Shown: one piece after another, positions 14,914-25,551 of the stretch
Numbering within the stretch: the stretch's first letter is position 1
How the letters are laid out: the number at the start of each line of letters is the position of its first letter
Assembly: GCF_001610875.1 (NCBI RefSeq)
Contig: NZ_CP011272.1
Span: 1,345,988 to 1,409,987, forward strand
Length of the DNA stretch: 64,000 bases
Reading direction: 5' to 3'
DNA from: Pirellula sp. SH-Sr6A
GTDB lineage: Bacteria; Planctomycetota; Planctomycetia; Pirellulales; Pirellulaceae
Notes under the pieces: generated by a model
What the model was told of the DNA's origin: nothing
The model's database searches: none
Seen by the model: only the letters and a program-made list of their open reading frames with translations
Made by a program: the position numbers and the translations under genes

Positions 14914-15101
14914 GGAACTTTCCTCAAAGATTACCCGATCGCTGAATCCAGAAATTCTATCTTAACCGATAAAAACAGTCTAAAGGACGAAATAGGCGTA
15001 GTCGATACTGACAAAACACCGAGAAGCCGGTTTGGTCTTTCGTCCAATAAGAACTCTCCGCACGAACTCATTGGCCCACAATTTTGAAGGAGATACTTCT
15101 G

Positions 15102-16526
15102 TTGGTTTCTAAAAACCACATATCGTACCTCCGATTGATGGCGGCGTGCATAGTGCTGGCGATGCGAGGAATTGCGTCTGCGCAAGACCCGACATCGCTT
15201 GCAATCGAGGAAACGGGCTCGAGCTACGCAAGTTATGCTGCGTCGACTTTCGATGGCCAGTCCGAACTATCGACCAAAGAGAAAACGAGTGAAAAGCAGC
15301 CTGATGTCGAAAAAGAGATTGAGAAACTGAAGAAACAGGTTGCGGAATTAAGTAAAGCAGAGAAAGATCGCAAAGACAAAGCGGCGAAACTCCCAACCAC
15401 CAAGATCACGACTCAATTGCAACCCGACTTCTATTGGTTCAGCCAGGATGCAGATAATCGCGCTACGGTCGGAGACATCCAAGATGGCTCAGCGTTTCGA
15501 CGCGCCAGAATTGGAGTGACCGGCGACTATGGCCCTGCACAATATCGAGTAGAGTTTGATTGGGCTCTGGCAAACAGACCCAACTTTTTGGATGTTTGGG
15601 TAGGGATGACTGACGTCGAGGGAATCGACTCAATTCGTGTTGGCCACTTTTTTGAACCGTTTAGTCTCGAACGTGTTACGCCCAACCGCTTTACTGTCTT
15701 TCTTGAACGTTCTCTAATTGATTCCGCTTTCGCCCCAGCCCGAAATCTAGGCGCTATGGCCCAGAACGAAATGTCGGACGAAATGGGAACTTGGGCCATC
15801 GGTGGGTTTAGAACAAATAGCGACGGATTCGGTGATGACGTCGGAGATTTTGGCGAGTATGCAGTAACAGGTCGAGCAACGCGTCTTCTACGGTACGACG
15901 ACTCTTGCGATTCACTCAGCATGTTGCATTTTGGTGGCTCATACAGCTTTCGCGATGCCGATAATCGAGTCTCACGATTTCGATCGCAACCCGAGGCAAG
16001 AGTAGGAGCAGTATTAGTCAATAACGTGCCAAACTTTGTAGACACGGGTAATATTGCGACTGAGAACTTTCAACTATTTGGACTAGAGTCTGCCTGGGTT
16101 GAAGGACCACTCTCAATGCAAGCCGAGTACATGTGGGCTCCTGTCAATGTCATCAATGGGCCAACTGCACTGATGCAAGGTTGCTACGGTCAAGTGTCTT
16201 ATTTCTTGACTGGTGAACATCGACCTTTCAAAAAGAGCAATGCGGTGTTCGATCGCGTCATTCCGAAAAGAAACTTCGTGCCGAGCGGTAAAGGCAGGAT
16301 CGCGGAAGGTCCTGGTGCATGGGAAGTCGCAGCTCGACTATCCCACTTGGATCTCAACGACGGGAATGTTGTAGGTGGTCGGATCACTGACTTAACAGTG
16401 GGAACGACTTGGTACATGAACCCGTTTCTACATGTAACCACCAACTATGTGCATGCTTTTCTTGATCGCAACGCAGCGAAAAGCAACGCCGATATTTTTG
16501 GTTTCCGAGTAAACTTTGATTTCTAG
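15102..16526 (+). CDS. Outer-membrane porin, phosphate-selective O/P type
   Basis: I start at TTG 15102 because AAGGAG at 15087-15092 sits nine bases upstream; a TTG at 15084 would place the ribosome site inside the gene. A signal peptide ends near ASA/QDP. A short coiled coil follows (EKEIEKLKKQVAELSKAEKD), as in other planctomycete porins. Then comes a long beta-barrel region of the Porin_O_P family (FRRARIGVTGDYGPAQYRVEFDWA, VGHFFEPFSLERVT) ending in Phe (FRVNFDF), the usual outer-membrane protein terminus. It probably passes anions through the outer membrane. No phosphate transport genes are adjacent. Confidence 0.85.
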   Translation: MVSKNHISYLRLMAACIVLAMRGIASAQDPTSLAIEETGSSYASYAASTFDGQSELSTKEKTSEKQPDVEKEIEKLKKQVAELSKAEKDRKDKAAKLPTTKITTQLQPDFYWFSQDADNRATVGDIQDGSAFRRARIGVTGDYGPAQYRVEFDWALANRPNFLDVWVGMTDVEGIDSIRVGHFFEPFSLERVTPNRFTVFLERSLIDSAFAPARNLGAMAQNEMSDEMGTWAIGGFRTNSDGFGDDVGDFGEYAVTGRATRLLRYDDSCDSLSMLHFGGSYSFRDADNRVSRFRSQPEARVGAVLVNNVPNFVDTGNIATENFQLFGLESAWVEGPLSMQAEYMWAPVNVINGPTALMQGCYGQVSYFLTGEHRPFKKSNAVFDRVIPKRNFVPSGKGRIAEGPGAWEVAARLSHLDLNDGNVVGGRITDLTVGTTWYMNPFLHVTTNYVHAFLDRNAAKSNADIFGFRVNFDF

Positions 16527-16608
16527 CTGATCACTCGCTGGTAACTAAAGAGTAATTGACCGCTAAGTTTACGCTCGTCAAAACTCACAGGGAGCAAGGA
16601 GGAGAAGA

Positions 16609-16722
16609 ATGCACGAATCTTTCAATAATTTGCACCCTTCAAATCTCTTGGCTCAGACCGTTCCGCATCGAGATTTGCCACTTCCGCTGCCACTCGATGA
16701 AGTAACTTTGAAATCGTTGTAA
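16609..16722 (+). CDS. Possible 37-residue small protein
   Basis: An ATG at 16609 follows an excellent ribosome site (AAGGAGGAGAAGA, 16596-16608). The frame reads MHESFNNLHPSNLLAQTV to a TAA at 16720. No family, no signal peptide and no hydrophobic segment are visible. It lies in the 289-bp space between the porin and the 3' end of nrdB (opposite strand). The Shine-Dalgarno match is the only support. Confidence 0.4.
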   Translation: MHESFNNLHPSNLLAQTVPHRDLPLPLPLDEVTLKSL

Positions 16723-16815
16723 ATTCGACTTTTCTTACTTCATATCATATTCGTAAACTCGACGGCTTCGATCCCACTTCAGCAGTTCGGGCAGGGTTCG
16801 ATCATTCACGAAGCA

Positions 16816-17889
16816 CTAGTCCCAGTTCAGACTTCCAGCCGACTGATATTCTGTGACGCGAGTCTCGAAGAAGTTCTTCTCTTTGGCGAGGTCCATTGTC
16901 TCACTCATCCATGGGAACGGATTGCTCGATCCGTACTGCATCGGTAAGCCGATTCGCTCAAGTCTTCGGTCGGCAACGTACTGGACGTAGTCGCGAAATA
17001 AATCCGCGTTAAGCCCCAGAATGCCGTTTGGCAAGCAGTCGGCAGCATACTGAAGTTCAAGTTCAACTGCTTGCTTAACTCGGGCGATCATCTGCTGCTG
17101 GAAATCATGCGTCCACAGATGCGGGTTCTCGCTCTTGATGCCATTGATCAGATCAATCCCGAAGTTGAGGTGCGTAGTTTCATCGCGAAGAATGTATTGA
17201 AACTGCTCGCCGATTCCGGTCATCAGATTCCGTCGATGAAACGAGAGCATCATCACGAAACCGGTGTAGAAAAAGACGCCTTCCATGATGATGTAGTAAC
17301 CGATCAGGTTCTTGAGTAGCGATTGAGCACCTTCGTCGCTGGCGGTACTAAAGTTAGGGTCGAGTACTTCAGCCGTCAGTTCCGTTTCGAAGGCATCTTT
17401 GGCAGCGATCGAAGGAACCTCGTGATACATGTTGAAGACCTCACCTTCGTCGAGGCCAAGGCTGTCAACGACGTACAAGAATGTATGCGAGTGTACCGCC
17501 TCTTCAAATGCTTGACGCAACAGATACTGGCGGCATTCCGCGTTGGTAATATGTTTGAAAATGGCCAGTACCAGGTTGTTGCCAACCAGACTCTCCGCCG
17601 TAGAAAAGAACCCCAGGTTGCGCATGATGACGTGGCGTTCCGCGTCGCTCAGCCGATTACTGCGCCAAATCTCGATGTCTTTGGTCATGGGAACTTCGGT
17701 CGGCATCCAGTGATTAGCGCATCCGTTCTGGTAATGTTCCCAGGCCCAGTGGTACTTGAGCGGCATGAGTTGATTGACATCGACCTGTCCGCAGTTGATC
17801 AATCGCTTCTCGGACGCATTGAATCTTTCGACAGCAGGAGTAGATTGAGATGCCACGTTTTGATTGGTGCTATTCGTAATTATAGACAT
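16816..17889 (-). CDS. nrdB: Class I ribonucleotide reductase small subunit, class Ic-like (Phe at radical Tyr site)
   Basis: 357 residues from the ATG at 17889 (AAGGAC upstream; the frame extends to 17988 but that part is the intergenic leader). Ferritin-like metal ligands are visible: Glu in [10 protein letters not shown], Glu and His in [12 protein letters not shown], Glu in IIMEGVFFY, Glu and His in [11 protein letters not shown]. The residue four after the His, normally the radical Tyr, is Phe, and a Tyr follows two further on. With Glu rather than Asp as first ligand, this is the pattern of the Chlamydia trachomatis R2 that uses a Mn/Fe cofactor. It makes deoxyribonucleotides with NrdA without B12. 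It is the last gene of the riboswitch operon. Confidence 0.95.
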
Positions 17890-17893
17890 ATGG

Positions 17894-18190
17894 TTAAGTC
17901 CTTGGGTCTGTTGGAATTGGAATGGTTGAACGTTGACTAAGCCAAGCAGCCAGCTCAAGACGGTTCGCAAAATCGCGTGGACCGTCAAGAACTTCGTTGT
18001 CGGCTGAAAAATGGATGATTTGGAATGGTCCGTTTTGATCGGGAAGATCGAATCCCCCCAGATCAGTCAAATAGAAGAAGTCTCCGCGAGGTTCATCTCG
18101 TACGAACGCCCGAGACACTCCGGGCCGATGGACGACTCGGAAGCCTCGTGCAACCCAGTTGTAGTAAAAGCCGCGGGAGTAAAAATGCAT
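17894..18190 (-). CDS. Hypothetical 98-residue protein between nrdA and nrdB
   Basis: It begins 12 bp after nrdA and ends 4 bp before the nrdB start, so it fits tightly into the operon. The sequence is aromatic-rich at its N-terminus ([19 protein letters not shown]) with a middle block [20 protein letters not shown] and no Cys pairs, so it is not a glutaredoxin/NrdH. I recognise no family. Position suggests a reductase accessory or an unrelated rider. Codon use is like its neighbours. Confidence 0.65.
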
Positions 18191-18202
18191 ACTTCACGCC
18201 GC

Positions 18203-21049
18203 CTATTGGCAAGCTTCGCAGTCTGGATTATCGATCAAGCAAGTCTTTGTAGACGCAGGAGCATCAACACGATTGAGTTGAATCGCACTTGACTCGCTCT
18301 TGGACTTCATCCACTTGGGTTGAATTCCGTGGCGATTGACGTCCAGCGTCGATTTCTCAACCTGCGTGGCAGCTAGACAGCGAAGATAGTAAGTCGTCTT
18401 AAGTCCCTTTTGCCAGGCGAGCTGGTACATCGAATCGATCGCCTTACCATTGGGTTTTGCCAAGTAGAGATTCAGTGATTGCCCCTGATCAATCCATTTC
18501 TGTCGTCGCGCCGCTGCTTCGATCAGCCAATGCGGTTCGACTTCAAAAGCGGTCGCAAAGAGCTCTTTCACATCGGGAGGGATCGAATTTATCTCCGCAA
18601 GAGTACCGTCATGGTATTTGAGGTCATCCAGTATCTCAGGACTCCAAAGTCCCCGCAGCTTGAGCGTGTCGACGAATAGCTCATTGATCTGCGTGAAGTC
18701 ACCTGACAAGTTGCTCTTGGCATAAAGGTACTTGTAGGTTGGTTCGATCGACTGTGATGCGCCAACAATCGTCGAAATGGTTGCCGTCGGAGCAATTGCC
18801 AGGCAGTTGCTATTGCGCATACCATTTTGCGCGATCGATTCTCGGACAGGTTGCCAGTCCATCGACGTCCCGCGTGTAATATCCACTCGTTCGCCACGTG
18901 CCTGATCAACGAGTTCCATCGAATCAAGAGGCAGTATGCCGCGCGACCATTTCGAACCATCGTAACTGGAGTATCGACCTCGCTCAGCAGCCAAGCGTGA
19001 GGAAGCAAGGATCGCAAAATAGCTGATAGCTTCCATACTTCGATCTGCAAACTCCATAGCCGCTTCGCTGGCGTATGGAATCCCGAGCCGATGAAGTGCA
19101 TCTTGAAAACCCATGACACCCAGGCCGATAGGTCGATGTTTGAGATTCGACTCGCGCGCCTCTGGGGTTGGGTAATAGTTGATATCGACTACGTTGTCGA
19201 GCATCCGGACCGCCGTGGTTACAGTTCGCTCCAGGAGCGTCATATCCAGTTCACCGCCTCGCAGATGTAATCCCAAGTTGACGCTACCGAGATTGCACAC
19301 GGCCGTTTCTTGCTCACTGGTATTTAGCAAGATTTCTGTGCACAGATTGCTACTGTGAACTACACCGACGTGATCCTGGGGTGAGCGGAGGTTTGAGGGG
19401 TCTTTAAAGGTTACCCACGGATGCCCTGTTTCAAATAATCGCGTCAACAATTTGCGCCAAAGATCAACTGCTGGTAGCTTTCGGTTTTGTCGAAGTTTAC
19501 CTGTTGCAGCCAGGGATTCGTAATGTTCATACCTCGTGTTGAACGCGGTGCCATAGAGATCATGCAGATCGGGAACCTCGCTCGGGCAGAACAGCGTCCA
19601 CGTGCCTCCCTCTCGAACTCGCTGCATGAACAGATCGGGAATCCATGCGGCGGTATGCATGTCGTGTGTTCGACGGCGATCGTCCCCCGTGTTCTTCCTA
19701 AGGTCCAAAAACTCCTCGAAATCCAAATGCCATGGTTCTAGGTAGGCACACACCGCTCCTTTGCGCTTTCCGCCTTGATTCACAGCAATGGCCGCGTCGT
19801 TCACAATCTTCAAGAATGGGATGACTCCTTGGCTTTCTCCATTGGTGCCATGAATGCGAGCACCAATGGCTCTTACGTTCGTCCAATCGTTGCCCAATCC
19901 ACCCGCCCACTTGGAGAGTTGAGCATTGTCGCCGATGCTCTTGAATATGTGCGCGAGATCGTCTTGGACTGTCGTCAAATAGCAACTGCTAAGCTGCGGA
20001 TGGCGCGTGCCTGAGTTGAATAGCGTCGGCGTTGCACTGGTATAACGAAATGATGAGAGCAGGTCATAGAATTCGATTGCTCGATCGGTTTGCACATCGC
20101 CAGGCTCTGCCAGGGCCAAGCCCATCGCGACTCGCATCCAGAAATACTGCGGCGTTTCGATACGTCGCCCATCAATGTGAAGCAAGTAGCGATCGTAAAT
20201 CGTCTGGATTCCCAGATAGCGAAATTCGTTGTCGCGCTGGATGTGCAGTGCGTCGGCTAAACGCTGGAGATCGAATCCTCGCAAGTCTGGGGAAAGACGT
20301 TCGTGCCGAATGCCTTCGATGATGTAGTGTTCAAACTTGTTACGATAGATCGCTTGAAAGTCATCGCGATTCTGAGCGAATCCCAGCGACTGTCGGTAAA
20401 CGATCGCTCGCTGGAGTGCGGCCGCCAAGCGATCGTAGGCTGGATCGACTTCGATACGGCTGCGCGCGGAAAGAACCAACGAGCGGGCGATGTCACTCGT
20501 GGTCATTCCGGAGAACGATCCCTTGATGACTTCATCGATGAGTTCCTCAAGACGAATGGCATCCCTTCTGGACTCAGGCAAAGACAACAAGAACGTCCGG
20601 ATTCGCCCCGCGTCAAAACGAACAAAGACGCCGGGCTCAATTTCAACCTGCGGAACGACTTGAACCGGCTCTGACCGGCTGTCCGCAATGACTGACTCTT
20701 CCTGTCGAACAGCCCGAAGCTTGGCATGTTCGGAACGATAGAGGATGTAGCGGCGCGCCACTTTGAAGTGCTGCCGTTGCATCAAACCGATTTCGACGAT
20801 GTCTTGAATTTGCTCAACGTGCAGTGGCTCGGTTCGTCCCGGTGCAGTGGCAAGCTCAATGACCTGCTCAACGATGCTTAAGATGTCCTGGTAAGAATCC
20901 GCAGGCAGCGGTTGCCCGTCCGCCAGATTCAGTTCCGAACGAAAAGCCTTCTCGATTGCCTGTTCAATTCGACGTCTGTCGAACTCGGCATCGCGACCAT
21001 CTCTCTTCCTGACCCGCATCAATGCGGCACTCTCGACCGTCCAACCCAT
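18203..21049 (-). CDS. nrdA: Class I ribonucleotide reductase large subunit
   Basis: 948 residues. Two N-terminal ATP-cone regions are visible: one at ~11-105 ([20 protein letters not shown]), a second at ~130-230 ([20 protein letters not shown]). The active-site Cys pair is SSCYLTT near 355 and [10 protein letters not shown] near 583, with the NLCTEI catalytic loop near 567. The C-terminus ends in CEACQ, the redox pair that is re-reduced by thioredoxin or glutaredoxin. The ATP cones imply allosteric on/off control by ATP/dATP. A ribosome site AGGA precedes the ATG. It follows the DUF6580 gene by 38 bp and is under the cobalamin riboswitch by position. Confidence 0.96.
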
Positions 21050-21087
21050 GTCTTTAGTTCCTGTGTTAAATTGACGTCAAACAAACC

Positions 21088-21618
21088 TCATGCGATCACC
21101 TCACTGGCAACTACCGGTCGCAAGGCCGGTAATCGCCACTCTGCGAAACGCAATGCCCCAAATAAAACCAAACCAAACACGAAATCCGATAACAACGTGT
21201 TTTGAAAAAATGGCACGGCTGCGACATAGCAGCTTGCAAAGCCGGCCCATGATCTCTCATACATCGTTAGCCAACACGCAAAATTCGTAATGACAAAAAA
21301 GCCAATCGAAGCCGCCAACGAAGCGGCTATCAGTCGCTTAGCGTCGATTTGATGGCCCGCCCACCAGCCAGCCACGACGTACAGAGCCATTGATAGGTAA
21401 ATGACAATGCAGATCCACTGAAATCCAATGGCAACGTCGCTAATGATCATGGCGCAAATCGGAATCAATAACGATAACCAACGATTCCCCAGCGATGCGC
21501 CCGCAAATAGCCCGACAGCTCCCACCGCCGCAAAATTCGGTGGATGCGGAATTAGGCGACTGAGAACAGCTAACACGATCAGTGTAGCAATGACCGCAAT
21601 TCGGTTCGAAATAATCAT
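21088..21618 (-). CDS. DUF6580 membrane protein, BtuM-like predicted cobalamin transporter
   Basis: 176 residues, about six membrane segments. The conserved family blocks are SRLIPHPPNFAAVGAVGLFAG, ICAMIISDVAIGF, VITNFACWLTMY and CYVAAVPFFQNTLLSDF. I start at ATG 21618, which overlaps the upstream stop as ATGA and has GAAGGA eight bases before it; a GTG at 21675 is less likely. From memory this is the family of BtuM, an S-component-like cobalamin transporter of Gram-negative bacteria found behind B12 riboswitches; its cobalt-binding Cys may correspond to Cys55 or Cys70 here, which I cannot decide. The riboswitch upstream strongly supports a cobalamin role. Confidence 0.82.
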   Translation of the reverse strand: MIISNRIAVIATLIVLAVLSRLIPHPPNFAAVGAVGLFAGASLGNRWLSLLIPICAMIISDVAIGFQWICIVIYLSMALYVVAGWWAGHQIDAKRLIAASLAASIGFFVITNFACWLTMYERSWAGFASCYVAAVPFFQNTLLSDFVFGLVLFGALRFAEWRLPALRPVVASEVIA

Positions 21619-22478
21619 GACGTTGGTCCTTCTAACAATCTTCGCGAATTTGCTTTGCATCGGCGTCGTCGCCACAAAGCAATGCCAGTTCCAGCGATGC
21701 CTAGTAATGCAAAGCTCGACGGTTCAGGAACGGCGGTGATGGTCAAGTTGTCGAATGCAACGTAGGTCGGTGTATTAATGCCAAAGGCACCGACATCTGA
21801 CGAGGCGGACGACAATGACACAGATCGAGAGTTCGCAATTGATGAAAGGTCAACAGTTAACCAATTCGATAGAATGAAATCCTGGCTATTATCCGCAAAA
21901 GTGAAGTCGGCAAGATTGACCGTAACCGAACCGATGGAATTGCCCGTACCGTTTAGCCCGTCGAATCCACTGAGCGAGACGCGAAAGAAATCGGGATCGT
22001 TCCCAGAGACTCCGCCAAAGTTTTTGGCGAAGCTATCTCCGGTCTGCATCGACAACGCTGCATAGGTCGTGTTGGCCAGTGAAACAGAGGACAAGAGTGT
22101 GCTGGACGGCAAGTTAAAGAATGCTCCGTCGGCATATGCCACCGCATACTTAGACGAGCCGTTCGCACCTGTTCCAGCGAAGGAACTGTATTGATTCGAA
22201 AAACCTGGGGTCGTGGTGTCAGTGTGATTGGAAACTGCGAAACCCCTCCAACTGCCATAGAGATCATTGTTGCTGTTGAAGAATTCAACACCGCTGACGG
22301 CGAACGTGCCATTTCGATCATTTCCACCGAAGGGCCCAGGTGTGGAAATTGCATTGCTTGTGGGGCCATTAAAAACACCAGATCCATTGAGCGGAAATCC
22401 CTCAAAATCGACGACAATGTCCGCTCGACCTAGTTGCGTCAGGGACACAACGAGTATCATTGCAAAGGCTAAACGCAT
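21615..22478 (-). CDS. DUF4465 surface protein with PEP-CTERM anchor
   Basis: 287 residues: signal peptide (MRLAFAMILVVSLTQLGRA), then a DUF4465-like domain (WRGFAVSNHTDTTTPGFSNQY, SSKYAVAYADG, LANTTYAALSMQTGDSFAKNF), then the PEP-CTERM sorting signal (AVPEPSSFALLGIAG plus helix and RRRR). PEP-CTERM proteins are processed by exosortase and displayed at the surface. Family members in Bacteroidota occur with B12-uptake genes (recalled, to be checked). With a cobalamin riboswitch upstream, a cobalamin-capture role is a fair hypothesis. Its stop overlaps the start of the DUF6580 gene. The basic tail after the helix is longer than usual. Confidence 0.85.
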   Translation of the reverse strand: MRLAFAMILVVSLTQLGRADIVVDFEGFPLNGSGVFNGPTSNAISTPGPFGGNDRNGTFAVSGVEFFNSNNDLYGSWRGFAVSNHTDTTTPGFSNQYSSFAGTGANGSSKYAVAYADGAFFNLPSSTLLSSVSLANTTYAALSMQTGDSFAKNFGGVSGNDPDFFRVSLSGFDGLNGTGNSIGSVTVNLADFTFADNSQDFILSNWLTVDLSSIANSRSVSLSSASSDVGAFGINTPTYVAFDNLTITAVPEPSSFALLGIAGTGIALWRRRRCKANSRRLLEGPTS

Positions 22479-22504
22479 ATTGGTACTCCAAGTTGGAAAA
22501 ATGG

Positions 22505-23473
22505 TTAAGGCAATTCCACAACCTCTTGCTTGGCTCGTGTGATCAGCTTGCCAAGAAGTTGTTTATCGATTGATTCAGAAACAAATAACGTTCGAGCATC
22601 CGCGAATAGAAACATCGCGCCACCTTCGTGAGCACTGCGGATTTCGTTATCACCAACCCAAGCGGTTGGGTCGTTGATGCCATGAGCGACCGCAAAGATA
22701 TTGCGACCGTTGATCCACTGACGGTCTGGTCCACCAACGTCCTCTGAGACGGCAAGCGTATTGCTCAAACCGTCGATGACGTCGCTAAAACGGAATGCTC
22801 GTTCGTTAACAAAGAGCCCGTCATCCTGCTCTCGATCAACAATCAGTTCACCGAAGATGCCGCCGTAGCTGATTTGGCCCTTATTGGGTGTGAGGTCTGG
22901 TTCCGTCGGACACAAATAGATGGACAAGTCAGTTTTGGCTACGCTTGAGTTCTCAGGCGCATCGAATGGCTTATTCCAATTGATCTGCTGATGAAGATTC
23001 AGTTGCTCCACAAAAGGCAGTAGCATTGCAGACCATGCGAATTGGCGTCGGTTCGGAGGAGCGTTCCACGCTCTCCATTCAACGCATCCAGTAGGCAACG
23101 ATTTGTGCGTGTCGTGATAGTTATGAAGTGCAATACCGACCTGCCTTAGGTTATTCTTGCAAGGCACCTTTCGAGCGGCCTCTCGGGCGGCTTGCACTGC
23201 GGGCAGCAATAGAGCAACAAGAACCCCGATAACGCCGATCGTCACAAGCAGCTCGACAAGCGTGAAGCCATCCGAGCGATCTCGCGAGCATAGAAGGCGA
23301 AGCCGGACCAAAGCTCGCTCAACAATTTGCTGCTTCACCGAATCATCGCTGCATGACCAGAGTGCAATCTCCGATCGATCTCTACCGCAACCGACGCAGA
23401 CTTCCATCTCCGATAGTTGGCACTGGCGATTGCAAGGCGATGCAACTTGGTGGACCATATTTGACCCCTCCAT
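22505..23473 (-). CDS. DUF1289 Fe-S-type motif fused to DUF1559 prepilin-like protein
   Basis: 322 residues. Residues ~10-45 match DUF1289, a four-Cys motif ([20 protein letters not shown] followed by DRSEIALWS). After ~25 residues comes a prepilin signal ([20 protein letters not shown]) and a full DUF1559 region ([20 protein letters not shown]). The H-X9-DG end is modified to [14 protein letters not shown]. An N-terminal extension of ~65 residues before a prepilin signal would stay cytoplasmic, so the Cys cluster would sit on the inner face or be removed by prepilin peptidase. It is eight bases after the previous gene, in the riboswitch operon. Confidence 0.85.
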
Positions 23474-23481
23474 GACGATCC

Positions 23482-24393
23482 CTATACGCTTTCTGTAGCT
23501 TTGCCTTCCGTGTCGCGTGATCTAGAATGCCGACGCCTACGAAAGGCAAAGCCCCCCATGCCCGCAATGGTGAGCAATGCTAGACTCGATGGCTCTGGGA
23601 CTGCTGAGACATTCATAACTCCAACGCCAAGTCCAGTGCCCAATCGGAAATCAAAACCACCTGATCCCGTTGTTAGCCAGTTGTCGCGTATTGGATTGCC
23701 TAAGCTGTCGACGAACGCTCCGTTACCTGGTATGTCAAAGAGTCGGACATATTGAATGTTGTTCAAGTCGAGCAGACCGCCAGACACCAGGGTGTGCGAG
23801 GTCAATTCAGCGAGATCGAACGGCGTACCGAAACCTCCAGCATGTTTGCCTGCCAGGTTGTAGACGTTCGTGACGTCGTAACCAGCGAATGCTCCGCTCC
23901 CTTGGATCGGACCCGTGTTTCGACTGATGCTACTGAACCTTGCGAAGTCAATGCCGTTAGTTGAAACATCGACGTAGGCGAACTCGGCGAACAAGCCTGG
24001 AATACCATTCGAGTTAGTGCCAAAGGTAAAGCCGTTTTCGAATACTGCGAAGTCGTGCCCCAGACCGTTCCTGATTCCGGTCGGGAACGTGACTGTTAGA
24101 AATCCTGGTGAGAGACCATTAGCGATTTGAGTGGCGTCTAGGTCTCCGAGGCTGTTGAATCCACCTGTCTGATTGATGACCGAACTGCCTCGGGGCGCGA
24201 ATGACGTTCGAGTTGGATCGATGAAATTTGCCCACTCCCGAAATCGGCTGTCATTGGCTGCAATGGCTGGATCGATCGCGTGAGTGGTCTCAGTGGGGCC
24301 TGAGAAAACAAGATCAGCTTTTGCTCTACCGCTTTGAATGCTAACGACTGCGAAGATGGACGCTAAAAGAAGCGTCTTGTGTTTTTGGATCAT
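23482..24393 (-). CDS. PEP-CTERM surface protein, first gene of cobalamin riboswitch operon
   Basis: 303 residues. Signal peptide ([15 protein letters not shown]), then a domain with [32 protein letters not shown] and [16 protein letters not shown]. That layout matches the 'cell surface protein' families seen beside cobalamin loci in other phyla (recalled, not checked). A PEP-CTERM signal ([15 protein letters not shown], helix, RRRR) closes it. The ATG has AAAGGCG upstream. It begins about 240 bases after the B12 box, which leaves room for an expression platform. Probable function: surface binding protein; ligand unproven, cobalamin is the obvious candidate. Confidence 0.83.
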
Positions 24394-24551
24394 GGCACGC
24401 CTTTCATTCCATGCGCGCAGTCGCTAGCGGAATCCGGACCGCACCAAATTGATGCAACCAGATCACGGGGGCTTTTGAGCGAATGGACTAGCCAACGAAT
24501 GGCTGTTACTGGCTTTGAATAAACGGGTCAGAAGATCAATGAAGAAGGCAA

Positions 24552-24569
24552 TTGGGGCGTCGACCCCAA
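24552..24569 (-). promoter_or_regulatory. Hairpin in the riboswitch leader, possible expression platform
   Basis: TTGGGG and CCCCAA form a perfect six-pair stem around a six-base loop, about 70 nt after the B12 box and 160 nt before the first gene. A pyrimidine-rich run follows but no long U tract, so it may be an attenuator or an unrelated hairpin. Confidence 0.35.
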
Positions 24570-24629
24570 CGAGACAAACAGCATCGATCAACTGCAACGA
24601 TTGCCTCAATCCAGGAAGGCACGACATCG

Positions 24630-24880
24630 TCTAGCTCAAGGTAGGTCTTCTGACTCACCACCGTATCGTTCGCTCACAGCCTTCTCATCCGTTTCAACCC
24701 TGATTTGAGTCAGGCGGACAATGGCTCATTCCAAAGAAAGGAGCAACGATTGCAATCAGTTAAGATCACGGGTGGCACACAGCGGCCGGACCGTCCCGGA
24801 ATTGCCTTCGGGAAGAAGACGCACCGGAGTTCCCTGTTCACCTTGTTGGCATCCAACAAGATCACCTTGAACAACATCAA
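24630..24880 (-). ncRNA. Cobalamin (B12) riboswitch
   Basis: On the minus strand the conserved parts occur in the right order and spacing: a GGATGCC start near 24855, CAGGGAACTCCGGTG (24822-24836), GGTCCGGCCGCTGTG (24778-24792), and the B12 box AGTCAGAAGACCTACC (24640-24655), about 200 nt in all. This is the core plus peripheral arm of the adenosylcobalamin class. It lies in a 536-bp space with the seven-gene nrdAB operon downstream. Such riboswitches turn expression off when cobalamin is bound. Boundaries are approximate. Confidence 0.93.
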
Positions 24881-24929
24881 TATACGAAAACCAACTCGCT
24901 AGTCAATCACTCATTTCTGAGGAAGAAAG

Positions 24930-25262
24930 CTAACGAACCTGATCGCTTGCGAACCTCAATGCCATCGTTTGCGCAGACTCCCACTCGCCTTCGCCCGCCA
25001 TCTCAAGGACCTTCTTGAAGGATGTGATTTCTTCACCACTGACCTTGCCTTCCGACTCAAGTTCCGCCAATCGCTCAACACATTCAGCGAGTCGCTTTTG
25101 GTTTTTCGTGTTGCACGCGGTATAAACCTGCTTGATGAACTCAAGTGATTCTTTTGAGGTTGCTTTCGGATGCTGACTGCACCCACCGAGCAGTATCGCA
25201 GCAATAACCAGCAATACACTATGCCTCCATAATGGAATGGAACCGCGATTACTAATCCTCAT
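24930..25262 (-). CDS. Small lipoprotein, unknown function
   Basis: 110 residues from ATG 25262. Lipobox LLGGC follows a hydrophobic run (SVLLVIAAILLGGC), then a helical Lys/Glu-rich domain (ESLEFIKQVYTACNTKNQKRLAECVERLAELES). Planctomycetes often place such small lipoproteins directly behind a DUF1559 gene, and a DUF1559 C-terminal fragment overlaps here by a few bases. No function known. Confidence 0.7.
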   Translation of the reverse strand: MRISNRGSIPLWRHSVLLVIAAILLGGCSQHPKATSKESLEFIKQVYTACNTKNQKRLAECVERLAELESEGKVSGEEITSFKKVLEMAGEGEWESAQTMALRFASDQVR

Positions 25263-25551
25263 GAGCAAACACCTCCCCCTTGCCACAACTGCTCATCGCA
25301 GCCCACGTATCAAGATTTATCGTTGTGGCAACGTACCGTACGCTGCCATCACCCAAAAGTACATAGCCACCTCCTCCGTTCCAAGGTGCGTACATCTGAC
25401 AAACATGACATGTCGGAAACGAAGGAGCGTGAATAACTCCAGGTTCGTCTGCAGCTGGACCGGAATGGCAAAGAACATACGTCGCGCCATGATCGCATTC
25501 GGTAAACGGAAATCGATTTGGGTCCTTAGGACATGAGAAGCTTCCAGGCAC
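25252..25551 (-). pseudogene. C-terminal part of a DUF1559 protein
   Basis: The 99-residue frame ends with GGGGYVLLGDGSVRYVATTIN and a Gly-Glu-Val tail, the C-terminal end of DUF1559 proteins. It lacks the prepilin signal and most of the domain. It begins with GTG at 25551. It is either a small stand-alone relative or, more likely, the remains of a full gene whose 5' part was lost; IS debris starts about 400 bp upstream. Confidence 0.6.

Follow-up and report, generated by a model that had tools for sequence, protein, structure and literature searches.

A cobalamin riboswitch operon predicted to couple B12 capture and import with a B12-free ribonucleotide reductase in Pirellula sp. SH-Sr6A

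We analyzed a 64,000-nucleotide stretch of the Pirellula sp. SH-Sr6A genome (G000:C1:1345988-1409987, hereafter "the window", inside a one-contig genome of 6.53 Mb) in which a cobalamin riboswitch precedes seven closely packed genes on the minus strand (Table 1). Our reading, to which we give a probability of about three in four, is that these genes form a B12-repressed operon that combines capture of the vitamin, its import and a bypass through a B12-free ribonucleotide reductase. The second gene encodes a pilin-like DUF1559 protein that, we think, is the key player, and which the preliminary description of this locus had not singled out. Across relatives, DUF1559 seems to stand in the position of BtuB; that it also has a BtuB-like role is a tentative proposal, with the odds somewhat against it. 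The functions given here to the riboswitch and to all seven genes are predictions from sequence comparison and gene order.

Parts of this picture are already known, namely the riboswitch control of B12-independent isozymes and B12-binding BtuH and DUF4465 proteins in Bacteroides. Among literature titles and abstracts, we found none on a link between DUF1559 and cobalamin riboswitches or on a BtuH protein with a PEP-CTERM anchor, which is weak evidence, most subscription journals being outside the search. None dealt with a class Ic reductase behind a B12 riboswitch either, again weak evidence, as that pairing was not searched directly.

The riboswitch and the predicted capture and import genes

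The cobalamin riboswitch of the preliminary description was borne out by a covariance-model search: the full-length RF00174 match is the sole Rfam match above the gathering cut-off within the window and lies 229 bp from the first ATG. The gaps between genes 1 to 7 are 8, 26, -4, 38, 12 and 4 bp, the negative one being an ATGA overlap of the DUF4465 gene with the DUF6580 gene. These gaps and the Pfam and NCBIfam domains agree with the tight packing and gene content described earlier; the starts of the DUF6580 gene and nrdB had to be corrected, the likely ones being ATG 21618 and ATG 17889 rather than those of the longer open reading frames (ORFs). The promoter match at the riboswitch start is the only one on the minus strand in a scan of 16500-25300, whose total of four matches is not above that of shuffled sequence (mean 6.9). 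A terminator scan, itself not above shuffles, listed no terminator-like hairpin on the minus strand from the aptamer to gene 1, and the 281-nt segment from the aptamer 3' end into gene 1 has a folding z of -2.58. Low intracellular cobalamin would lead the riboswitch to permit mRNA synthesis or translation.

The preliminary description had proposed that the surface proteins capture cobalamin, and homology supports this, as both PEP-CTERM proteins belong to or resemble B12-binding families. Gene 1 passes the BtuH-fold test, and its profile matches BtuG1 residues 372-475 (E 4.2e-5), covering the first part of the domain only; a single-sequence PDB search with gene 1 returned nothing, and the profile was needed. 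Its nearest relatives are in Rhodopirellula rubra and the planctomycete TBK1r, among the best 80 of at least 543. Gene 3 scores 155.3 bits against PF14717 (cut-off 25) and matches structure 9hmu with E 6.6e-15. Its HI-loop motif reads NTPTY, and that of the genome's second DUF4465 copy NTPAY; a motif of the form [NGS]TPxY is present in 69 of the 78 DUF4465 ORFs of the fetched loci described below and absent from nine, with overlapping loci kept in. Mucisphaera is a planctomycete genus. According to PMC13398666, the NTPAY-type HI-loop motif carries the B12-contacting Tyr, and B12 binding is reported for eight DUF4465 members, one of them from Mucisphaera. The genome holds one exosortase match, and genes 1 and 3 would place two B12-binding proteins on the cell surface by the PEP-CTERM/exosortase route.

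Such an arrangement resembles the BtuB-BtuG, BtuH and BtuJ1/J2 loci of Bacteroides thetaiotaomicron, which share (PMC10404256, PMC13398666) the B12 riboswitch and the BtuH-type and DUF4465 surface B12-binding proteins, but use lipoprotein anchors where we find PEP-CTERM. Unlike those loci, ours has no TonB receptor that we could find, a pilin-like DUF1559 protein in the receptor's position, and reductase genes attached.

Gene 4, described earlier as a BtuM-like transporter, does have the S-component/BtuM fold: it passes a six-helix fold test, and a profile of 31 DUF6580 proteins matches 6fnp_A over positions 1-168 (E 1.9e-9). A single-sequence PDB search with gene 4 gave nothing, so that here too the profile was needed; the profile search did not return BtuM itself, with which a relation is still compatible. 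The structure 6FNP is ECF-CbrT (PMC12075633). With CbrT and with BtuM of Thiobacillus denitrificans (6FFV; 8C7P, 8OVV), gene 4 shares the six-helix fold, a near full-length alignment and a B12 gene context, at 14% identity to BtuM in the structural alignment. It would carry the vitamin across the inner membrane like BtuM or CbrT, perhaps alongside unlinked btuFCD-like genes, whose products in this genome fall short of the NCBIfam BtuF and BtuC cut-offs.

Table 1. Features of the predicted operon, with positions in the window (aa, amino acids)
Feature	Position	Strand	Match or remark
Cobalamin riboswitch aptamer, RF00174	24623..24884	-	67.2 bits, gathering cut-off 31.5, model 1-189 (full)
Sigma-70-like promoter match, TTGACT-16-TATATT	24879..24906	-	10/12, at riboswitch start
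Gene 1, PEP-CTERM-anchored BtuH-like surface protein, 303 aa	23482..24393	-	
Gene 2, DUF1289 fused ahead of prepilin-type DUF1559, 322 aa	22505..23473	-	PF06945, PF07963, PF07596 above cut-off
Gene 3, DUF4465 (BtuJ-type B12-binding jelly roll) with PEP-CTERM, 287 aa	21615..22478	-	PF14717
Gene 4, DUF6580 membrane protein with six helices and the S-component/BtuM fold (176 aa, start at ATG 21618)	21088..21618	-	
Gene 5, nrdA (948 aa), ATP-cone large chain of a class I ribonucleotide reductase	18203..21049	-	PF02867/PF00317/PF03477
Gene 6, ORF98	17894..18190	-	no Pfam/NCBIfam family
Gene 7, nrdB (357 aa), small chain of class Ic type	16816..17889	-	PRK07209, 614.2 bits

Two further observations concern this genome. 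The genome's second RF00174 match (C1:1266045-1265799, 56.7 bits) is followed by a cassette (L005:7396-9611, C1 1263395-1265610) of a DUF1289-DUF1559 fusion and a DUF4465 PEP-CTERM protein, without reductase or DUF6580. Convergent with the operon end is a gene for a phosphate-selective porin O/P family protein (window 15084-16526, plus strand).

DUF1559 genes and TonB receptors behind cobalamin riboswitches

The preliminary description had stated that no TonB-dependent receptor is present, and by Pfam this holds for the whole genome, with 0 matches to the receptor plug PF07715 and 0 to TonB_C PF03544 (the control search with PF07715 was positive in 3 of 14 genomes, E. coli, Caulobacter and Bacteroides); a BtuB route is therefore unlikely there. 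To see what accompanies cobalamin riboswitches elsewhere, we fetched the loci around RF00174 matches in 80 related genomes, this one included, and mapped their genes with a simple longest-ORF picker. There were 99 matches in 71 genomes, 98 of them above cut-off (the match in G046, at 24.9 bits, is below it). DUF1559 genes occur in 51 of the 99 riboswitch operons, DUF4465 genes in 34 and BtuH-like genes in 16, at least one of the three in 66; corrinoid salvage or btuFCD-like genes occur in 15, TonB receptors in 10, nrdA in nine and metE in three, and seven operons have no labelled family at all. In 47 of the 99 operons (five have no called gene) the leading gene encodes DUF1559, compared with 17 of the 870 other genes of the same loci (47/94 versus 17/870, Fisher p 4e-39); one operon with two riboswitch matches (L024) enters these counts twice, and some of the 870 genes recur because their loci overlap (L080/L082, and repeats of L024, L035 and L047). 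DUF4465 domains number 39, spread over 34 of the 80 genomes, and 38 of them sit no more than 4.5 kb downstream of an RF00174 match on the same strand; the exception (G020) is at a contig end.

When a DUF1559, DUF4465 or BtuH-like gene in a riboswitch operon is called a cassette, the 71 riboswitch genomes divide into 57 with the cassette only, 10 with a TonB receptor only, one with both (G078) and three with neither (G020, G030, G059; p 6.5e-9). With our own genus dropped, the counts are 33, 10, one and two (p 1.7e-7); these statistics treat genomes as independent. Measured by distance, a receptor plug lies within 1.5 kb behind a riboswitch in 11 of the 80 genomes (all 84 plug rows were checked), none of which has a DUF4465 domain (p 4.5e-4 among the 71 riboswitch genomes, p 0.003 without our genus). 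The two tests follow different rules: the plug search gives 11 genomes and the operon map 10 loci, missing G043, while G030, whose DUF4465 gene begins 869 bp past the riboswitch, beyond an antisense ORF, is "neither" in the operon count and DUF4465-positive in the distance count. The one riboswitch-linked receptor scanned (L057) has TonB-B12 as its best match, below cut-off (305 versus 600 bits).

The same exchange of partners appears around BtuH-like genes. Searching GTDB species genomes with the alignment of gene 1 yielded at least 543 relatives, the best 80 of which were kept; all counts of BtuH-like loci refer to these 80, with phyla assigned from record titles. Within 3.5 kb on the same strand, 29 have a TonB receptor, 28 a DUF1559 gene, one both and 22 neither (p 6e-7), and in 41 DUF4465 is near or fused. 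Planctomycetota loci have DUF1559 in 15 cases, a receptor in none and neither in nine; those of Proteobacteria and Desulfobacterota-like lineages have a receptor in 18, DUF1559 in none and neither in two. Within Verrucomicrobiota the counts are 11 for DUF1559, five for a receptor, none for both and one for neither (p 0.001). The remainder comprise Myxococcota (receptor three, neither two), Bacteroidota (receptor three, neither one), Cyanobacteria (neither five), Lentisphaerota (both one), Armatimonadota and Sumerlaeota (DUF1559 one each), and Spirochaetota and one unassigned locus (neither). Of the 64 loci tested, 48 contain an RF00174 match, where one would expect about 0.17 from the density in the 80 related genomes, from which other phyla may differ; by neighbour, the rate is 19/22 with a receptor, 14/22 with DUF1559, 14/19 with neither and 1/1 with both. 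Because BtuH-like genes accompany cobalamin riboswitches in other phyla too, the earlier suggestion of a "planctomycete-specific" uptake route has to be dropped.

Several loci of the two surveys have features of their own. Two giant surface proteins behind a riboswitch, of 1517 and 2003 aa (L044:569-5122, L093:3019-9030), carry, besides a BtuH-like domain, two and three DUF4465 domains and are possibly multivalent B12 binders. Three cyanobacterial loci (L127, L133, L134) have a cobalamin riboswitch with neither TonB receptor nor DUF1559 within 3.5 kb, and two (L131, L136) have no riboswitch match. In a deltaproteobacterial metagenome-assembled genome (L146:6862-7487), tandem cobalamin and c-di-GMP-I-GGC riboswitches stand ahead of DUF4465 and BtuH-like genes, a possible two-signal control of B12 capture, and six clustered Acido-Lenti-1 RNA copies lie behind another DUF4465/BtuH-like locus (L143:9851-10430).

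Gene 2 itself has the prepilin N-terminal methylation motif PF07963 at 27.5 bits (cut-off 21.2), a GspG-like NCBIfam match below cut-off, and no transporter-like part in the Pfam scan. Ahead of the prepilin signal, DUF1289 forms a long Cys-rich pre-leader, a fusion seen in both copies of this genome and in four relatives (window 22505-23473, L005:8367-9611, L067, L088, L092, L095); it would remain cytosolic if prepilin peptidase cleaves at the prepilin motif. A stand-alone DUF1289 adjoins DUF6580 in G044 and G030 (L014, L054). From the partner swapping, we infer that gene 2 may take the outer-membrane or periplasmic part of BtuB/TonB.

The strongest competing account is that the PEP-CTERM proteins and DUF1559 are a sponge rather than a gate, merely holding B12 at the surface or in the matrix while an unrecognised porin provides the crossing of the outer membrane and DUF1559 serves as a displaying structural pilin. 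Bacteroides BtuH and BtuJ are described (PMC10404256, PMC13398666) as proteins that bind at the surface or on vesicles, next to a transporter distinct from them; the absence of a transporter-like Pfam part from DUF1559 and the five cyanobacterial BtuH-like loci with neither partner nearby fit this as well. We nevertheless consider it rather improbable: a TonB-less genome needs a passage for a molecule above the porin limit of about 600 Da (quoted in PMC5394234), and the near-exclusive swap of cassette and receptor (57/10/1/3 of 71) exceeds what a display role would lead one to expect. Less probable again is that DUF1559 is a pseudopilin for secreting the PEP-CTERM capture proteins, with the riboswitch link reflecting export instead of uptake. 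The prepilin motif and the GspG-like match would suit such a role, as would the pairing of DUF1559 with DUF4465 or BtuH-like genes in 24 of the 99 riboswitch operons; against it, DUF1559 leads eight salvage or btuFCD-like operons (L007, L011, L012, L013, L016, L019, L074, L076) with no DUF4465 or BtuH-like gene in the called operon, some of them cut by contig ends. The longest DUF1559-led operons include cbiA-like, cobO, cobU, btuF, btuC, btuD, cbiB and aminotransferase genes.

Ribonucleotide reductases and the proposed bypass

Replacement of a B12-dependent reductase by a B12-free one is a bypass known from other bacteria. This genome contains two PF02867 large chains, the operon NrdA (PRK07207, 1355.5 bits, cut-off 965) and a 990-aa NrdJ (PRK06556, 1417.5 bits, cut-off 859), the latter being a class II enzyme of the kind that the preliminary description had advised looking for elsewhere in planctomycete genomes; a frame of MetH length with a B12-binding domain is also present. 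For the small chain we had expected class Ia, and the alignment points to class Ic instead. The closest structures to NrdB are 4d8f, 1syy and 2ani (E 2e-171 to 6e-171), which we take to be Chlamydia R2 proteins, 1SYY and 4D8F being those of Chlamydia trachomatis class Ic. All 13 NrdB proteins compared carry Phe where the radical Tyr would be and Glu as the first metal ligand, presumably the class Ic signature, and our NrdB aligns with the C. trachomatis R2 at E ~2e-171 over 336 residues with Glu and Phe at those positions. It differs from that protein in its host and in its predicted riboswitch control, and its class Ic assignment is a sequence-based prediction. Between the two chains, ORF98 is 68% identical over 90 aa to an ORF sited between nrdA and nrdB in G038 (L085). 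The three genes would supply a B12-free, Chlamydia-like class Ic reductase that sustains DNA precursors while NrdJ is short of cofactor.

Among the relatives, NrdA and NrdJ were separated by PF02867 score and our own hidden Markov model for NrdA, the NCBIfam scan being applied to this genome's pair only; a short further reductase type in G046, G047 and G058 was left unclassified, and some reductase matches are fragments. By score, 16 of the 80 genomes (ours included) have an NrdA-type chain. In nine, nrdA lies in a riboswitch operon and an NrdJ-type match is present in each (partial in G059), which accords with the B12-riboswitch control of class I reductase invoked in the preliminary description. 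It stands first behind the riboswitch in G038, G039, G051, G053, G059, G060 and, truncated by a contig end, G076; it is a distal gene in our genome and G007. Riboswitch-operon nrdA is thus found in 9 of the 13 NrdA genomes with an NrdJ-type chain versus 0 of the three without (G031, G034, G037), which have no RF00174 match at all; the dependence is only suggestive. A B12 riboswitch reportedly controls class I reductase and metE in actinobacteria and others. As in that system, a cobalamin riboswitch of our genome precedes a B12-independent isozyme, and the B12-dependent class II enzyme is encoded too; our operon differs in its Chlamydia-like class Ic small chain, which shares the operon with capture and import genes.

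Two arrangements involving metE were seen. G051 and G053, from two families of the order, have nrdA-metE-nrdB behind one cobalamin riboswitch (L009:1948-8453, L017:1974-8518), an order that ties two B12-independent isozymes to a single switch. G043 has a riboswitch before metE and one before a TonB receptor, with no RF00174 match at nrdA-nrdB (L034, L104, L108), so that there the isozymes are wired separately.

It is quite unlikely, in our judgement, that the reductase genes are unrelated neighbours, with nrdA read from a promoter of its own inside the 38-bp gap or the preceding gene and free of B12 control. Such an arrangement would be in keeping with the 3.6 kb between the riboswitch and the start of nrdA, and with the seven of 16 NrdA-bearing relatives that have no riboswitch before nrdA. 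The gaps of at most 38 bp speak against it, as does the promoter scan, a weak test, which gave no minus-strand sigma-70-like match within the operon; moreover, nrdA is first behind RF00174 in seven other genomes, twice with metE between nrdA and nrdB. The NrdA tree joins our genome and G007 to G038 with support 1.0, and G038 has the order riboswitch-nrdA-orf98-nrdB; the simplest history, we infer, would be that a module like this one was placed behind a capture operon in our lineage.

Weight and meaning of the combined reading

A number of observations weigh against an operon uniting capture, import and bypass. The aptamer score is moderate, at 67 bits compared with up to 125 in relatives. Within our genus (27 genomes, ours included), NrdA was found by score in this genome and G007 only, and the joined capture and reductase order in the same two of 27; instead of the conserved seven-gene order for which the preliminary description had proposed a survey, we found the joined operon here and, in G007, up to nrdA residue 462. 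In that genome the nrdA frame breaks off at about this residue, the DUF6580 gene has an in-frame stop and nrdB is absent from the contig; the break (L095:1-5451) lies inside the contig with unrelated genes next, through truncation or a misjoined contig. Four of the seven NrdA genomes without a riboswitch ahead of nrdA do have an NrdJ-type chain (G028, G043, G045, G074; for G074 about 170 bp of upstream sequence were available). None of the several Cys of gene 4 could be matched to the cobalt-binding Cys that is invariant in BtuM (Cys80 in BtuM_Td), as no residue alignment to BtuM was obtained, and of the 59 DUF6580 genes counted across the 80 genomes, 52 stand elsewhere than behind a riboswitch. 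A receptor plug is above cut-off in 38 of the 80 genomes, including receptors away from riboswitches, so that the absence of TonB is not general. The 22 BtuH-like loci with neither partner count on the same side, as do the 16 of 64 tested without RF00174 (some shortened by contig ends) and the lack of any assigned biochemistry for DUF1559, a large family.

That family size, the richness of planctomycetes in paralogues and the 2% share of DUF1559 among other genes of the fetched loci might suggest a chance companion, which is highly improbable given the first-gene enrichment, a tree in which B12-linked DUF1559 proteins mostly group (judged by eye, with exceptions), and the DUF1559/BtuH-like pairing, which is found again in Verrucomicrobiota and in single cases in Armatimonadota and Sumerlaeota.

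Beyond the operon itself, we put forward as speculative, and on present odds doubtful, a TonB-free outer-membrane B12 uptake in planctomycetes and some other phyla, in which BtuH-like and DUF4465 PEP-CTERM proteins, induced through the riboswitch, would capture the vitamin and a dedicated pilin-like DUF1559 fibre or pseudopilus, with DUF1289 as a cytosolic pre-leader, would replace BtuB and pull or ferry it into the periplasm. PMC5394234 describes pili-like fibres on the crateriform structures of planctomycetes and active dextran uptake into the periplasm, and treats macromolecule uptake by these structures and fibres as speculation. A pilin-like B12 partner fits the crateriform-structure observations without proving anything.

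The question addressed is how a bacterium lacking TonB receptors moves a vitamin of ~1.36 kDa over its outer membrane. The gene set is small (DUF1559, BtuH-like and DUF4465), has its own B12 riboswitch, and can be compared between genomes with one and genomes with the other of the two alternative solutions, which makes the idea testable. The operon also suggests that one riboswitch makes the cell change from a cobalt-dependent reductase to one of class Ic, and the DUF1559 family gains a concrete functional lead. If true, the proposal would define a new class of outer-membrane vitamin importer and give genetics a first access to the unexplained uptake of macromolecules by planctomycetes.

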